Below, piece by piece: positions 5,648-14,853 of a stretch of DNA of 32,720 nt. The stretch is from the NCBI GenBank assembly GCA_031263445.1, contig JAISFV010000031.1, positions 1 through 32,720 of the forward strand, written 5' to 3'. The notes below the pieces were generated by a model. The model was not told the DNA's origin, did no database searches, and saw only the letters and a list, made by a program, of their open reading frames with translations. A program made the position numbers and the translations under genes. Each line of letters begins with the position of its first letter. Positions within the stretch are counted from its first letter, which is position 1. This DNA comes from Synergistaceae bacterium (lineage in GTDB: Bacteria; Synergistota; Synergistia; Synergistales; Synergistaceae).

Positions 5648-5734
5648 ATTGCATTATTTTTGCCGCGAGAGGTAGCGTAATGTCAATGAAATTCAGCGCC
5701 AGAAAAGGGCCGCGCGTTTTTGGGGACAGCGGCG

Positions 5735-6850
5735 ATGTTTGAGTTCAATATAATAGCGGAGTGTCCGGTTACAGGGGCCAGGGCCGGGGAACTGTCCACG
5801 CCGCGCGGCGTCATCGAGACGCCGCTCTTCATGCCGGTAGGGACGCAGGCGACGGTCAAGGCCATGTCGCCGCTGGAGCTGAAAGAGCTTGGCGCGCAGA
5901 TCATACTCGGGAACACGTATCACCTCTATCTGCGGCCCGGGGCGGACGTGATAGCGGAGTCGGGCGGTCTTCACAGGTTCATGGGCTGGCCCGAGGGCAT
6001 ACTGACGGACAGCGGGGGGTTTCAGGTCTTTTCGCTCTCGCAGCTCCGAAAGATAACGGACGACGGGGTCGAGTTCCGATCCCACATCGACGGGAGCGCT
6101 CACTTCATGACGCCCGAACTCTCCATAGGCGTCCAGGAACGCCTCGGCAGCGACATCGTCATGTGCTTCGACGAGTGCGTGAAGCTCCCCGCGACGGAGG
6201 ATGCCTCGCGCAAGGCGGTCGAACGTACGCTCAAGTGGGCGCGGAGGTGCAAAGAATCCCACGCGCGGGAGGATCAGGCACTCTTCGGGATCGTGCAGGG
6301 GGCGCTCTTCAGCGACCAGCGCGCCGAATGCGCCGAAAGGCTCATTGAGATGGGATTCCCCGGCTACGCTATAGGCGGCCTCTCGGTTGGCGAGCCGAAG
6401 GAGGAGATGTACAGGATCCTGGACATCCTCGCCCCCGTCCTCCCGCGCGTGAGGCCAAGGTACCTCATGGGGGTCGGGATGCCTGACAACTTGGTCGAAT
6501 CAGTCGCCCGCGGGGTCGATATGTTCGACTGCGTCCTCCCTACGCGCAACGGGCGCAACGGGAACCTGCTCACGCGGGCTGGCAGGATGAACATCAAGAA
6601 CGCCGCCTACGAACGCGATTTCAGGCCCGTCGACGAGCGATGCGGGTGTTATGCGTGCAGGAACTTCACGAGGGCATACCTGCGCCACCTCTACAAGTGC
6701 GGTGAGATACTCGCGGCGCGCATGTGCAGCCTGCACAATCTTTATTTTTTGACAGACTTGATGAAGAGGGCGAGAAGCGCGATAATAGGCGGCAGTTTTC
6801 CCGATTTTCATAAAAAATTCGTCAGTTCGTGGCAAGCGGAGGATATATAG
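5735..6850 (+). CDS. tgt: Queuine/preQ1 tRNA-ribosyltransferase
   Basis: A 371-residue TIM-barrel enzyme that swaps guanine-34 in GUN-anticodon tRNAs for preQ1, the first tRNA step of queuosine formation. Key motifs: TDSGGFQVFSL with catalytic-site D92; GGLSVGEPKEEMY; MGVGMPDNLVE; the nucleophile region FDCVLPTRNGRNG near residue 263. A C-terminal zinc site CGCYACRNF...C...H spans about 302-335. The length is normal for bacterial Tgt. The start is ATG 5735 (MFEFNII); an in-frame TTG at 5720 would add five residues not typical of the family. The next gene starts one base after its stop, so the two are co-transcribed. Confidence 0.97.
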   Translation: MFEFNIIAECPVTGARAGELSTPRGVIETPLFMPVGTQATVKAMSPLELKELGAQIILGNTYHLYLRPGADVIAESGGLHRFMGWPEGILTDSGGFQVFSLSQLRKITDDGVEFRSHIDGSAHFMTPELSIGVQERLGSDIVMCFDECVKLPATEDASRKAVERTLKWARRCKESHAREDQALFGIVQGALFSDQRAECAERLIEMGFPGYAIGGLSVGEPKEEMYRILDILAPVLPRVRPRYLMGVGMPDNLVESVARGVDMFDCVLPTRNGRNGNLLTRAGRMNIKNAAYERDFRPVDERCGCYACRNFTRAYLRHLYKCGEILAARMCSLHNLYFLTDLMKRARSAIIGGSFPDFHKKFVSSWQAEDI

Positions 6851-10592: not shown

Positions 10593-12707
10593 ATGGAGTT
10601 CAAGTATTACGAGCACGGGGTGTGCCGCGGAGACGTCAGGTTCGACGGGACGGGCGTCCATGCCCGCTTTCGGGACGGCCCGCGCGGCGCATGGAGAGAA
10701 GAGAGGGAAACAGCGCCAAGCGCTTCCCCTGGCTCGTTCCCGTTCGGTGAAGCAGTCCCGCTCTTTGACGCGTTTCGTTCATGCCGGCGCGAAGCTCATG
10801 ACGGCAAGGCCGTCCTGCCCGACGGCAGGGTCTATGAGGCTCAAAGGAACGTGCGCGCCGGCGGCAAATCGGCCACGGTCTGGGCGGTCACCTCAGACGG
10901 CCCGGTGCTAGACCTCGCGGTCGACGACTGCGGCGGCGAGATAAGGGCCGTTTTCTGGACGTCCAAGAAGGGGACGGCGGTGCTGGCCGAGGACGGATGG
11001 GAATGCGTTACGCCGGCCGCCCTATGGGATGACGGGCTGCTGCCGGAGGCAGGGCCGGTCTCTCATCGTGGCACCGAATTAGTGCCGATGCGCGACGGGG
11101 TGCGTCTGGCCACCGAGATATGGCTGCCAGGGGACGGGGCGGGGAAATACCCTGCCGTCCTGATGCGGACCCCATACAATCGCATGGATGGCGCAGAGCG
11201 CGCGATATATCTAGCGGAGCGCGGCTACGCCTTGGTCTCCCAGGACGTGAGAGGCCGCGAGGACTCGGAGGGCGAGTTCATGCCGGCTGTGTACGAGGCG
11301 CTCGACGGGGAGGACACGCTGGACTGGCTGGCTTCTCAGCCCTGGTGCGACGGCAGCGTCGGGATGATCGGCGGCTCGTACCTAGGGAGAGTGCAGTGGC
11401 AGGCGGCCTCGACAGGACACCCCGCGCTCAAGGCGCTCGTGAGCCAGGTGACGGCTGGCGGCCCGTTCGTGGACAGCCCGAGGCCGGGCGGCACGTTCAG
11501 CACCGGGTTCCTCGCGTGGATGTTCATGATGTCCGAGCGGAGGACGGCCAAGGAGAAGATGTCGCGGAGCGACTGGCCTGACCTGTTGGCGTCCCGCCCG
11601 CTCCGCGATATACCGGAGAGGGCGCTGGGGCAAAAGATCCCGTTCTGGGAGGAGTGGGTCAAGCACCCCGACTACGACGGATTTTGGGAGGGCAGCGACT
11701 GGGCCGCCTGCGGGGACAAAATAGACGTCCCGGCGCTCCTTATCTCAGGCTGGTACGACGACGACGGCATGGGGACGCTCCAGGCGTGGGAGATGAACGC
11801 GTCCAGGGGGCGGAAGAATCAGCGGATGGTGCTTGGCCCCTGGATTCACAGCTACAACACGGCGCGCTGCGTCCACGGCGTGAGTTTTGGCCCTGACGCG
11901 CTCCGGTACGACCTCGACCTGCTGGCGCTCCGCTGGTTCGAGCGATTTCTGAAGGGTGTACGAAACGGCGTCGAGTCCCCTGCGGTCGAATATTACGCCG
12001 TGGGCGAAAACAGTTGGAAGGAGTCGCCGGCCTGGCCGCCGGATGACGCGCGGCCAACGCCGCTCTACCTCCACAGCGGCGGGCGGGCTAACGGCTCTTC
12101 AGGGGACGGAGCGCTGTCGTTCGACGCCCCCGGGCCGGAGCCGGACGACACGTACCTTTACGACCCGGACGACCCGGCGCCGCAGCTCATCGACATGGCA
12201 GAAAACGAGATGGCCGTGCCGGAGGATTACAGGGAGGCCGAGAGGCGTGACGACGTACTGGTCTATACGACCGCGCCGCTCTCGTCGCCGCTCCCCATAG
12301 CCGGCAACGTGACGGCGGTCCTCTACGCGGCGAGCGACGCCCCCGACACGGACTGGCTCGTCCGCCTCACGGACGTGGACGCAAACGGCAGATCCATCCG
12401 GCTCGTCGACGCGATCATCCAGGCGCGCTACCGCGAATCGTGGAGCGAGCCGAAGCTCCTCGTCCCTGGGGAAACGGTCCGTTACGAAATACGTCTGCCG
12501 CACATAGCCAACACCTTTTTGGAGGGGCACAGGATAAGGGTTCACGTCACGTCTAGCGCTGCGAACCTTACTTTCCCGAACCCGAACACGGGGAGGGACG
12601 TCTTTACGGAGACGGAGGCCAGGACGGCCCGCCAGCGCGTCTCGCACCGAGCTGGCGCCGCGAGCTGCGTGATCCTGCCGGTGTGCGGCGGCGCCAAAGG
12701 CCGCTGA
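10593..12707 (+). CDS. CocE/NonD-family serine hydrolase (X-Pro dipeptidyl-peptidase S15-like)
   Basis: A 704-residue protein. Residues ~165-450 form an alpha/beta hydrolase: VPMRDGVRLATEIWLP, then DVRGREDSEGEF, then the nucleophile elbow GGSYLG (Ser near 261), Asp in GWYDDDG (near 388) and His in LGPWIHS (near 419). Residues ~470-700 match the PepX/CocE C-terminal jelly roll. The first ~150 residues are a polar, strand-rich extension that I do not recognise. Members hydrolyse X-Pro peptides, acyl esters or amides. It starts two bases after the DppA copy 2 stop, so an operon with the two D-aminopeptidases is likely and a peptide-type substrate is plausible. No signal peptide, hence cytoplasmic. 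Confidence 0.88.
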   Translation: MEFKYYEHGVCRGDVRFDGTGVHARFRDGPRGAWREERETAPSASPGSFPFGEAVPLFDAFRSCRREAHDGKAVLPDGRVYEAQRNVRAGGKSATVWAVTSDGPVLDLAVDDCGGEIRAVFWTSKKGTAVLAEDGWECVTPAALWDDGLLPEAGPVSHRGTELVPMRDGVRLATEIWLPGDGAGKYPAVLMRTPYNRMDGAERAIYLAERGYALVSQDVRGREDSEGEFMPAVYEALDGEDTLDWLASQPWCDGSVGMIGGSYLGRVQWQAASTGHPALKALVSQVTAGGPFVDSPRPGGTFSTGFLAWMFMMSERRTAKEKMSRSDWPDLLASRPLRDIPERALGQKIPFWEEWVKHPDYDGFWEGSDWAACGDKIDVPALLISGWYDDDGMGTLQAWEMNASRGRKNQRMVLGPWIHSYNTARCVHGVSFGPDALRYDLDLLALRWFERFLKGVRNGVESPAVEYYAVGENSWKESPAWPPDDARPTPLYLHSGGRANGSSGDGALSFDAPGPEPDDTYLYDPDDPAPQLIDMAENEMAVPEDYREAERRDDVLVYTTAPLSSPLPIAGNVTAVLYAASDAPDTDWLVRLTDVDANGRSIRLVDAIIQARYRESWSEPKLLVPGETVRYEIRLPHIANTFLEGHRIRVHVTSSAANLTFPNPNTGRDVFTETEARTARQRVSHRAGAASCVILPVCGGAKGR

Positions 12708-12722: not shown

Positions 12723-13838
12723 TCACACGTAGACGCGGGGCATCCTGGCGGTGAAGGAGACGGGGATCGTCCCTGTGACGGTCGATAGCTTTTCCGCGAC
12801 CTCGGCGACAGTGATCTCCAGGTCGCCCTGGCGGCCGATGAGGACGGCCTCGTCTCCTGTTTTGGGGTTCTCCAGGTGCGAGACGCCGACGACGAACTGA
12901 TCCATGCAGATGCGGCCGCGAATGGGGCATCGCTTGCCCTGAATCAGGACGCTGCCGATGTTTGACAGCCCCCTGTCGAAACCGTCGCCGTAGCCGGCCG
13001 GGATGACGGCCACCAGTTCCGTGCCGCTCGTCCTATAAGTCGAGCCGTAGCTTATGCCCCTGTCGGCGGGCAGCTCGCGCACGAGCCCTACTGCGGCCTT
13101 GATCTCGAAGCAGGGCTTTATCGGGATGGCGTCCCCGCACTCCGGGGCCGGTATGAGCCCGTGCAGTATGTGTCCCGGCCTCACCGCGTCCATGTACATC
13201 TCAGACAGGTTGGCCAGCATTGCGCCGGAGTTGCAGCAGTGCGACATCCTGACCTGGATCCCTGCCCTTCTGATCTCTTTTACGATGGAATCGAAGATGC
13301 CGAACTGCCGCTGCGTCGCGGCGGCGTCCTCCTCGTCCGCTCTCGCGAAGTGTGTCAGGATGCCCTCGAAATCTATCCCGGGGAGCGAGTGCAGCCGCTC
13401 CGCCGCGCGCAGCGCCTCCTCGCGCAGGAAGCCTACCCTGCCCATCCCGGTGTCCACTTTCAAGTGCGCCCTCGCCATGCGGCCCGTTTTTTGCGCCGCC
13501 CTGGAGAGCGCCTCCGCCATTTTCATATCGGTGACTACGGCGCTTATGCCGTGCGTGACGTATATCTCAGCCGTGTCATAGGGCGACGTGCCAAGCACCA
13601 GGATGCTGTCCTGGATACCCGCCTCGCGGAGTTCGAGGGCCTCGTCCGGCGTGGCCACGGCGAAGAAATCCGCACCCACGCCCTTGAGCGTCCACGCGAC
13701 GGGGAGAACGCCCATGCCATAGGCGTTAGATTTGATTACCGCGATTACTTTTGCGTTTCGGGCGTTCTCGCTGATAGCGCGGAAATTATGCCTGTAATTT
13801 TCGAGAGAGACTTCCATCCTGGTCTGGCGCAGATTCAT
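12723..13838 (-). CDS. alr: Alanine racemase
   Basis: A 371-residue PLP enzyme that interconverts L- and D-alanine for peptidoglycan. The cofactor lysine is K36 in AVIKSNAYGMG. The second catalytic base is the Tyr in GISYGSTYRT (near 263), followed by VAVIPAGYGDGFDRGLSN and GRICMDQFVVGV. The start ATG 13838 has GGGGGT upstream; a GTG three codons earlier (13847) overlaps that site. It is transcribed alone from the AT-rich region and converges on the DppA/hydrolase operon, which would consume D-Ala peptides. Confidence 0.96.
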   Translation of the reverse strand: MNLRQTRMEVSLENYRHNFRAISENARNAKVIAVIKSNAYGMGVLPVAWTLKGVGADFFAVATPDEALELREAGIQDSILVLGTSPYDTAEIYVTHGISAVVTDMKMAEALSRAAQKTGRMARAHLKVDTGMGRVGFLREEALRAAERLHSLPGIDFEGILTHFARADEEDAAATQRQFGIFDSIVKEIRRAGIQVRMSHCCNSGAMLANLSEMYMDAVRPGHILHGLIPAPECGDAIPIKPCFEIKAAVGLVRELPADRGISYGSTYRTSGTELVAVIPAGYGDGFDRGLSNIGSVLIQGKRCPIRGRICMDQFVVGVSHLENPKTGDEAVLIGRQGDLEITVAEVAEKLSTVTGTIPVSFTARMPRVYV

Positions 13839-13895
13839 CGTTGACACCCCCGGAGCGGAAATGCCGTATGTCGTTCGTGGCGACGGCTCCCCGCA

Positions 13896-13904
13896 ATTTT
13901 AGCA
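13896..13904 (-). promoter_or_regulatory. Extended -10 promoter for alr
   Basis: On the minus strand TGCTAAAAT forms an extended -10 element (TGn plus TAAAAT) about 60 bases before the alr start codon. The -35 region is weak, which is acceptable for this promoter class. Confidence 0.4.
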
Positions 13905-13969
13905 CAATCAGTGAAATTACGCAGATGGATGCATAACATACATAAAAAAATACTGTGTAAATTACTAAC

Positions 13970-13998
13970 TTGACAGAAATGATACATGCAGATAATAT
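13970..13998 (+). promoter_or_regulatory. Near-consensus sigma70 promoter facing citX
   Basis: TTGACA (13970-13975), a 17-base spacer, then TATAAT-like TAATAT (13993-13998). This is the best promoter match in the window. Transcription would begin near 14005, about 250 bases before the citX start, leaving a long untranslated leader. Confidence 0.65.
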
Positions 13999-14004
13999 TT
14001 GAAC

Positions 14005-14181
14005 AGATAACATATATTTAACGTTATAAAAAAGCGTTGAGTATTATAGATTAGTTTAATTTTGCCACAGGCAGGTCTTTAGAAAAAACCTGGCTTCCCA
14101 TTCATACATCCACACAAATATCCACGCACCAAGCTCCTTTCACGGGGGGTAGGCTAAGCCGGAGCCCCTCGTTATTTTTTT
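14005..14181 (+). ncRNA. Candidate leader RNA or small RNA ending in a terminator, upstream of citX
   Basis: Between the strong promoter and citX lies about 175 bases without a credible ORF. It shows several local stems (AACG...CGTT at 14020-14038; CAGGT...ACCTG near 14071-14092) and ends in the GC hairpin plus U run at 14144-14181. This may be an attenuator or riboswitch for citX, or a free small RNA. I recognise no known riboswitch class, and the first half is strongly AT-rich. Confidence 0.35.
14144..14181 (+). terminator. Rho-independent terminator-like hairpin upstream of citX
   Basis: GGGG (14146-14149) can pair with CCCC (14165-14168), with GGC/GCC pairing inside (14152-14160), or in an alternative register GGCT (14152-14155) with AGCC (14163-14166). 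A run of seven T follows (14175-14181). It stands after a strong promoter and before citX, the arrangement expected of an attenuator. Confidence 0.55.
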
Positions 14182-14256
14182 GTCCGGCTGTAGCTGGCCG
14201 CGCCTTTCAATGTGGTAAAATCCCTTCGAGTCGGTTTCGGGGCGGAGGTGGTTCCC

Positions 14257-14853
14257 ATGTCCGGCTTTGCGAGAGGCGAACCTGCCCGGGAGCGCGGGCC
14301 GTCTGCGGACTGCTCGCCGGTTGAGGGCGGTCTGCGCGCTCTCCTCGCGGCGAGGGAAGAGCGGGCGTGGCTGCAAAAATACCTCTTGGGTGCCTTTTCA
14401 GGACTAGGTTCGCATTGCGTCGCCCAGATCTCGCTCAACATACCGGGCTGGCCCAAGAGGCTCAGCGGAGACGAGCGCGCGCTGCGCGCCGGCGGCAGTC
14501 TTTTTTTGCGGGAGACAGCGGACAGTGCGCGGCCTAAAGCCGGTTTTTTTCTCCTGAACGCCGCCGGGGCTGCTATTATCTGGGTGCTGGCGGACGCCGG
14601 GGACACGGTTCTCGTCAAGGAGAGGGCTGTCAGGATCGAGGAAGGGCCTGAGTGGGGCAGGGTGCTCGACATAGACGTAATCACGCCTGTCGGCCCGCTT
14701 TCGCGGCCTGCCGCCGGGATCGCCGCGCGGAGGTGCTTCTTATGCGGACGGGAGGCCAAAGTATGCGCCAGGACTCAAGCTCACCCTGTCAGAGAACTGA
14801 GGGGCGAGGCCCGGCGGCTCATACGTCTGGCATCTTTTGAGGGCGGCGGCTGA
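14257..14853 (+). CDS. citX: CitX-like apo-citrate lyase phosphoribosyl-dephospho-CoA transferase
   Basis: A 198-residue CitX-family protein. CitX loads the prosthetic group 2'-(5''-triphosphoribosyl)-3'-dephospho-CoA onto the acyl carrier subunit of citrate lyase. Family signatures: LLAAREERAWLQ (29-40), ISLNIPGWPK (58-67), the presumed metal site GRVLDIDVI (D138, D140), GPLSR (146-150) and the cysteine-rich end CFLCGREAKVCAR (C160, C163, C170) with H176. The start ATG 14257 follows GGAGG at eight bases; an earlier in-frame GTG (14212) has no site. No citrate lyase genes (citDEF) or citG are visible, so the partner is elsewhere or the role differs. Its leader carries a promoter and a terminator-like hairpin. 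Confidence 0.85.
   Translation: MSGFARGEPARERGPSADCSPVEGGLRALLAAREERAWLQKYLLGAFSGLGSHCVAQISLNIPGWPKRLSGDERALRAGGSLFLRETADSARPKAGFFLLNAAGAAIIWVLADAGDTVLVKERAVRIEEGPEWGRVLDIDVITPVGPLSRPAAGIAARRCFLCGREAKVCARTQAHPVRELRGEARRLIRLASFEGGG

Follow-up and report, generated by a model that had tools for sequence, protein, structure and literature searches.

The locus analysed here raises the question whether an RNA predicted to be transcribed just in front of citX, in a genome of the Synergistaceae, is the leader of that gene or the product of a gene of its own. In the stretch of DNA under study (the window; 32,720 nucleotides in all), the divergent neighbour alr, which encodes alanine racemase on the minus strand (12723-13847; Pfam PF01168 and PF00842), and citX on the plus strand (14257-14853; Pfam CitX PF03802, E 9.6e-30) flank a sigma-70-type promoter, TTGACA-17-TAATAT (13970-13998, plus strand), with 10 of 12 matches to the consensus; the -35 element TTGACA is found at 13970-13975, the -10 element TAATAT at 13993-13998, and the spacer measures 17 bp. 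A small RNA of about 176 nt would start 7 nt after the -10 element and extend over 14006-14181 (plus strand), its end being formed by an intrinsic terminator (14142-14181, plus strand) made of a GC hairpin (14142-14172) and a run of seven U (14175-14181). As regards these elements, namely the TTGACA-17-TAATAT promoter, the RNA of about 175 nt and the GC hairpin with U7, a preliminary description of this DNA was right in both coordinates and wording. The gap that contains the RNA gene is rich in AT (GC 30% over 13900-14099 versus about 65% in the flanking genes); the promoter region of alr, on the minus strand, and the RNA promoter share this gap (window 13890-13960). Over a 3.5-kb region, four promoter-like sites were counted versus a shuffle mean of 1.0, two of the four being one site (TTGACA/TAATAT) counted with two spacings.

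The predicted free energy of the terminator hairpin is -19.0 kcal/mol, with a z-score of -2.7 and equally good values in 2 of 200 shuffles; the hairpin is not among the calls of an automated terminator scan, probably because of an internal loop in its stem. No open reading frame of at least 20 aa was found on the RNA strand, for which reason a leader peptide was rejected, and no tRNA or tmRNA is present in the whole window. The comparison with Rfam gave 0 matches for the whole window at the gathering score and 0 matches for 13800-14400 at E<=5, and the earlier statement that no known riboswitch can be recognised here is thereby borne out.

A search of 40 related genomes at the DNA level detected the stretch in three other genomes of the genus, at 70-79% identity, and, in a genome of another genus (G015), gave an 82% match over 92 bases which is confined to the RNA (E 6e-18). 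When five of the six sequences (all but G062) were used to train a covariance model for the 3' part of the RNA, the model recognised the RNA in six of the 52 family genomes and in the same six of the 185 from the phylum; scores in the six carriers, five of which are the training set, range from 92 to 139 bits. The carriers comprise all four genomes of the window's genus (G000, which is the window genome, G001, G002, and G003), the only genome of its genus in the case of G015 (1/1), and one of the four genomes of its genus in the case of G062; in G063, a member of the latter genus, the RNA is absent at the dppF position, and a FecR-like gene follows dppF instead. The covariance model gave no convincing match to any genome of other genera in this set of 185. 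A match in G123 (23.4 bits, E 0.04, in the set of 185 phylum genomes) was dropped as chance-like, the conserved tract described below being absent from it, and a locus in G030 (L007; E 0.02 in the DNA search) was dropped as well, lying inside a flagellar-type reading frame. Fifty sources were also scored (the window, two homologue loci, 45 stretches of a genome collection with the 18-mer, and two viral stretches): of the 45 genome-collection stretches, only the five from Synergistaceae exceed 90 bits, the best of the others reaching 21.5, while the viral stretches, at 17.8 bits or less, were rejected as chance-like. The named counterparts (L038, L043, L058, L066, and L070) are metagenome-assembled genomes of Synergistaceae. 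The RNA gene thus appears, on comparison of sequences, to be lineage-specific and kept in a clade of this family.

The spacing of 17 bp between the -35 and -10 elements is found in all six homologues by sequence comparison, and the predicted RNA, from the -10 element to the end of the U-run, measures 171-176 nt in each of them; it is because these two values are conserved in six of six that the feature stands above chance. Terminal hairpins of -18.4 to -23.4 kcal/mol are predicted in all six carriers, their strength being kept even though the identity of the terminators between genera is only 0.43-0.71; two genera have a shorter U-run, TTTT in G015 and GTTTTT in G062. Directly 5' of the -35 element, the AAATTACT box (13959-13966, plus strand) occurs in 6/6 homologues at a distance of 2-3 bp from that element, and is a possible regulator site or UP-like element. 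When the pattern AAATTACTRACTTGACA was searched with 0-1 mismatches in the six genomes, it was found only at the RNA gene of G000, G001, G002, and G003 (genus g1), the copies of G015 and G062 being missed because their spacing is one base shorter; all matches elsewhere than at the RNA gene carry 2-3 mismatches, and in most of these genomes matches of this grade are more numerous than those obtained with the reversed pattern as control, many of the former resembling ordinary -35 contexts. Letters of the type CATAA-ATAC upstream are kept also where alr is not the neighbour, and may therefore belong to the RNA gene.

Within the RNA, conservation is distributed unevenly. The 5' hairpin (14014-14044, plus strand), which is predicted in the G000 fold and has a similar counterpart in G001, is variable in sequence, and in pairwise comparison of the six homologues the 5' part as a whole is for the most part no more similar than shuffled sequences are. 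The middle segment, composed of a hairpin with a CAGGU/ACCUG stem (14069-14095, plus strand) and of a G-poor tract of 46 nt (14097-14142, plus strand), is 0.64-0.92 identical in every pair of homologues. In the middle hairpin, 83% of the cells are paired over the six sequences, and two pairs show a two-sided change; for two stems taken together the covariation signal is positive but weak, since the four pairs with two-sided change are reached by 11 of 500 shuffles and structures slid by -1 and -3 likewise give four pairs. The tract is nearly invariant and predicted to be mostly unpaired (unpaired fraction 0.66-0.86 in the folds of the six homologues); its pattern, with up to three mismatches, occurs in the same six of 52 family genomes, versus 0 for the reversed control. 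At its 3' end lies CUCCUUUC (14134-14141, plus strand), which could pair with Shine-Dalgarno sequences. The G-poor tract is probably the functional region of the RNA. The preliminary description had named a lack of leader conservation in relatives as grounds for refutation; the comparison speaks instead for a real feature, although conservation is stronger in the unpaired tract than in the structure.

The genes around the RNA differ among the carriers. In G015 and G062 the RNA lies 3' of a dppBCDF-type operon and no cit gene is downstream, the next gene being a convergent M24 peptidase in G015, while unrelated genes follow in G062. G001 has dppDF, alr (minus strand), RNA, and citX in succession, an arrangement which connects those with dpp and those with cit and argues that the RNA was inherited in place; in the window, an X-Pro dipeptidyl-peptidase (S15; 10593-12707) adjoins alr where G001 has dppDF. 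In G003, alr (minus strand) and the RNA are followed by citC (Pfam PF08218, E 4e-56) and then citX. In G002 (L066), the spacer between the RNA terminator and citX (about 5650-5850) includes letters much like the beginning of the G003 citC, and this spacer still carries the cit promoter motif; the apparent remnant in G002, considered with the RNA-citC-citX order of G003, indicates that citC was probably deleted in G002. CitF is encoded elsewhere in seven of seven genomes tested. The citX gene of the window, described earlier as solitary, is confirmed as citX by Pfam, and its solitude is probably that of a leftover from a citC-citX pair after the loss of citC.

One of the two readings proposed in the preliminary description is that of a cis-acting leader (attenuator or riboswitch) of citX, in which the hairpin would stop the polymerase or let it pass in response to a metabolite, for instance citrate or a derivative of CoA. 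The RNA is indeed located just upstream of citX or citC, and in the same direction, in four of four genomes of the window's genus; nevertheless, it is kept without a cit gene in the two other genera (2/6 carriers), and since it is kept whether or not citX adjoins, it is probably no switch for citX. Moreover, the interval from the terminator to the cit gene contains TGNTANNAT, at differing distances, in all four cit-linked genomes, the extended -10 elements at these loci having the forms TGGTAAAAT, TGATAGAAT, TGGTAAAAT, and TGGTAGAAT; in the window the element (TGGTAAAAT; 14213-14221, plus strand) is the likely citX promoter. An antiterminator was sought as a duplex of the 5' arm of the terminator with the upstream RNA, which proved no better than shuffles in six of six sequences, and the Rfam comparisons mentioned above, on the window and on 13800-14400, include no riboswitch. 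On this evidence control of citX by attenuation is improbable, and the simplest reading is that the RNA and the cit gene may be two tandem transcription units. The other half of the earlier proposal, that of a free RNA some 175 nt long, is supported, the unit from promoter to terminator being conserved without a cit gene in G015 and G062.

Two further explanations deny the RNA a new function of its own. That the feature is non-functional, an AT-rich spacer with a promoter and a terminator arisen by chance and preserved only because the genomes are related, would suit the narrow distribution (6/185 phylum genomes) and the whole-RNA fold, whose z-score is only -1.9; it agrees poorly with the identity of 82% over 92 bases which extends to another genus in the RNA only, and with the spacing of 17, the length and the terminator being kept in six of six carriers despite different flanking genes, and we regard it as very unlikely. 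Still less credible is a diverged housekeeping RNA such as 6S RNA, which shares with the present RNA a similar length, the intergenic position and the possession of its own predicted promoter: a match to the 6S model lies at G000:C97:3926-4097 and not at the RNA locus, where no Rfam family is found at E<=5, other places are likewise matched by the model in G001, G003, G015, and G062, and the closed long stem with a central bubble is not seen in the folds. The 6S candidate of G000, on the minus strand, scores 44.5 bits (E 1e-7) versus an Rfam gathering score of 46.4; the matches in G015 and G062 are stronger.

What the RNA might act upon was approached by scanning the translation starts in a portion of each of the genomes G000 and G015 for RNA-RNA duplexes, with gene starts from a simple caller. 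For the first 508 genes of G015, the mean pairing was -16.4 versus -16.9 for shuffled sequences (sd 0.6), and for the first 438 genes of G000 the 5% point was -24.8 versus -25.6. No excess of pairing over shuffles was seen in 75 reciprocal-best ortholog pairs of the two genomes; in 166 such pairs (646 and 812 genes), the best sum was -55.8 versus -57.7 for shuffled sequences, 26 of 40 shuffles being equally good, and one conserved 8-mer seed was found versus 0.4 expected, 9-mers being none. The pairing of CUCCUUUC with Shine-Dalgarno sequences is not distinguishable from the effect of base composition in both genomes sampled. Taken as a whole, the genome of G000 contains 17 SBP_bac_5 and 29 DppF-type ATPase matches, a strong expansion of dipeptide/oligopeptide ABC transporters. 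Seven of the 17 SBP_bac_5 matches were tried as a sample of dppA starts; with one of them lacking a usable start, six were scored, and one of these six fell in the best 5% for pairing with the RNA. Since about 27% of G000 and about 40% of G015 were covered and the gene caller was crude, the power of these tests is low, and targets are not excluded. The Hfq model PF17209 was positive in none of 40 genomes of the order, the window's own genome included (0/1), 32 of these genomes having a completeness of 90% or more and a contamination of 5% or less; the same model was positive in 5 of 14 control genomes.

These results bear on a different function for the same tract, namely that it binds a protein rather than mRNAs, the RNA serving as a decoy or scaffold. 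A long, nearly invariant and mostly unpaired (predicted) tract would be expected of such an RNA, and the lack of a target signal in the sampled genes and of Hfq matches in the 40 genomes agrees with it; on the other side, there is no repeated motif of the kind found in CsrB-type sponges, the only GGA motif of the window RNA that was found by eye being located in the terminator, and the missing target signal comes from parts of two genomes only. We consider protein binding a possibility of minor weight.

The reading which we prefer, and hold to be reasonably probable, is that 13959-14181 is a self-contained small RNA gene, separate from citX, a point which the sequence comparison supports, and that its product would act in trans through the G-poor tract; promoter, non-coding RNA of about 175 nt and intrinsic terminator would together constitute one gene unit. 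According to this proposal, the RNA would be transcribed from its own TTGACA-17-TAATAT promoter, possibly regulated via the conserved AAATTACT box, and its transcript would end at 14181; the 46-nt tract would bind mRNAs or, less likely, a protein, its C/U-rich end (CUCCUUUC) perhaps covering Shine-Dalgarno sequences, and this would occur without a recognisable Hfq. The citX gene, in turn, would have a promoter of its own, the extended -10 element, and be transcribed independently of the terminator of the small RNA. The locus is accordingly to be read anew, as the terminator would be that of the RNA gene, with citX merely adjoining it. More tentatively, the RNA might be the founding member of a clade-specific class of regulatory RNAs in an order without recognisable Hfq, the tract being kept, amid drift in the remainder of the RNA, because it docks a dedicated protein or a fixed set of mRNAs independently of Hfq, with a possible link to peptide uptake via the probable ancestral site at dppBCDF; this wider proposal is doubtful, and is offered as a possibility.

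In the literature searched, including passages of PMC9029176, PMC6429828, and PMC8632094, no regulatory small RNA of Synergistota was found described; the Synergistetes are represented in PMC6429828 by one genome, that of Thermovirga lienii. Among the matches listed for citX, citC or citrate lyase together with small RNAs, an RNA of this kind is absent. A conserved small RNA gene would offer a concrete handle on the use of regulatory RNAs without Hfq in such bacteria.

By its predicted features, the small RNA upstream of citX represents a new family within a known kind of RNA, that of intergenic small RNAs, and it may be set beside the systems which it resembles in part. With 6S RNA (RF00013) it has in common the length range and the status of an independent gene, whereas its fold and sequence differ and a 6S candidate is found elsewhere in the same genome. 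Attenuators and riboswitches share with the present locus a promoter, an RNA of leader length, a terminator and a gene in the same direction; unlike in those systems, the cit gene is here missing in two genera, a separate cit promoter motif is present, and an alternative structure of the RNA was not found. The sponges of the CsrB type differ in having many GGA motifs in loops, as compared to the single one of the RNA described here. GcvB is a small RNA repressor of peptide transporters which works via a G/U-rich tract with Hfq; the likeness is one of position only, the RNA having dpp genes nearby in G015, G062, and G001, while the dppA starts show no special pairing to it (1/6 in the best 5%). 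The closest comparison is offered by the trans-acting, intrinsically terminated intergenic small RNAs, a general class known from Enterobacteria and Firmicutes: the RNA described here departs from them in its null target search, in the Hfq model count of 0/40 and in having no Rfam family, and resembles them in its own predicted promoter, in its length of 170-180 nt, in an end formed by a hairpin and a U-run, and in a conserved C/U/A-rich tract that is predicted to be single-stranded.
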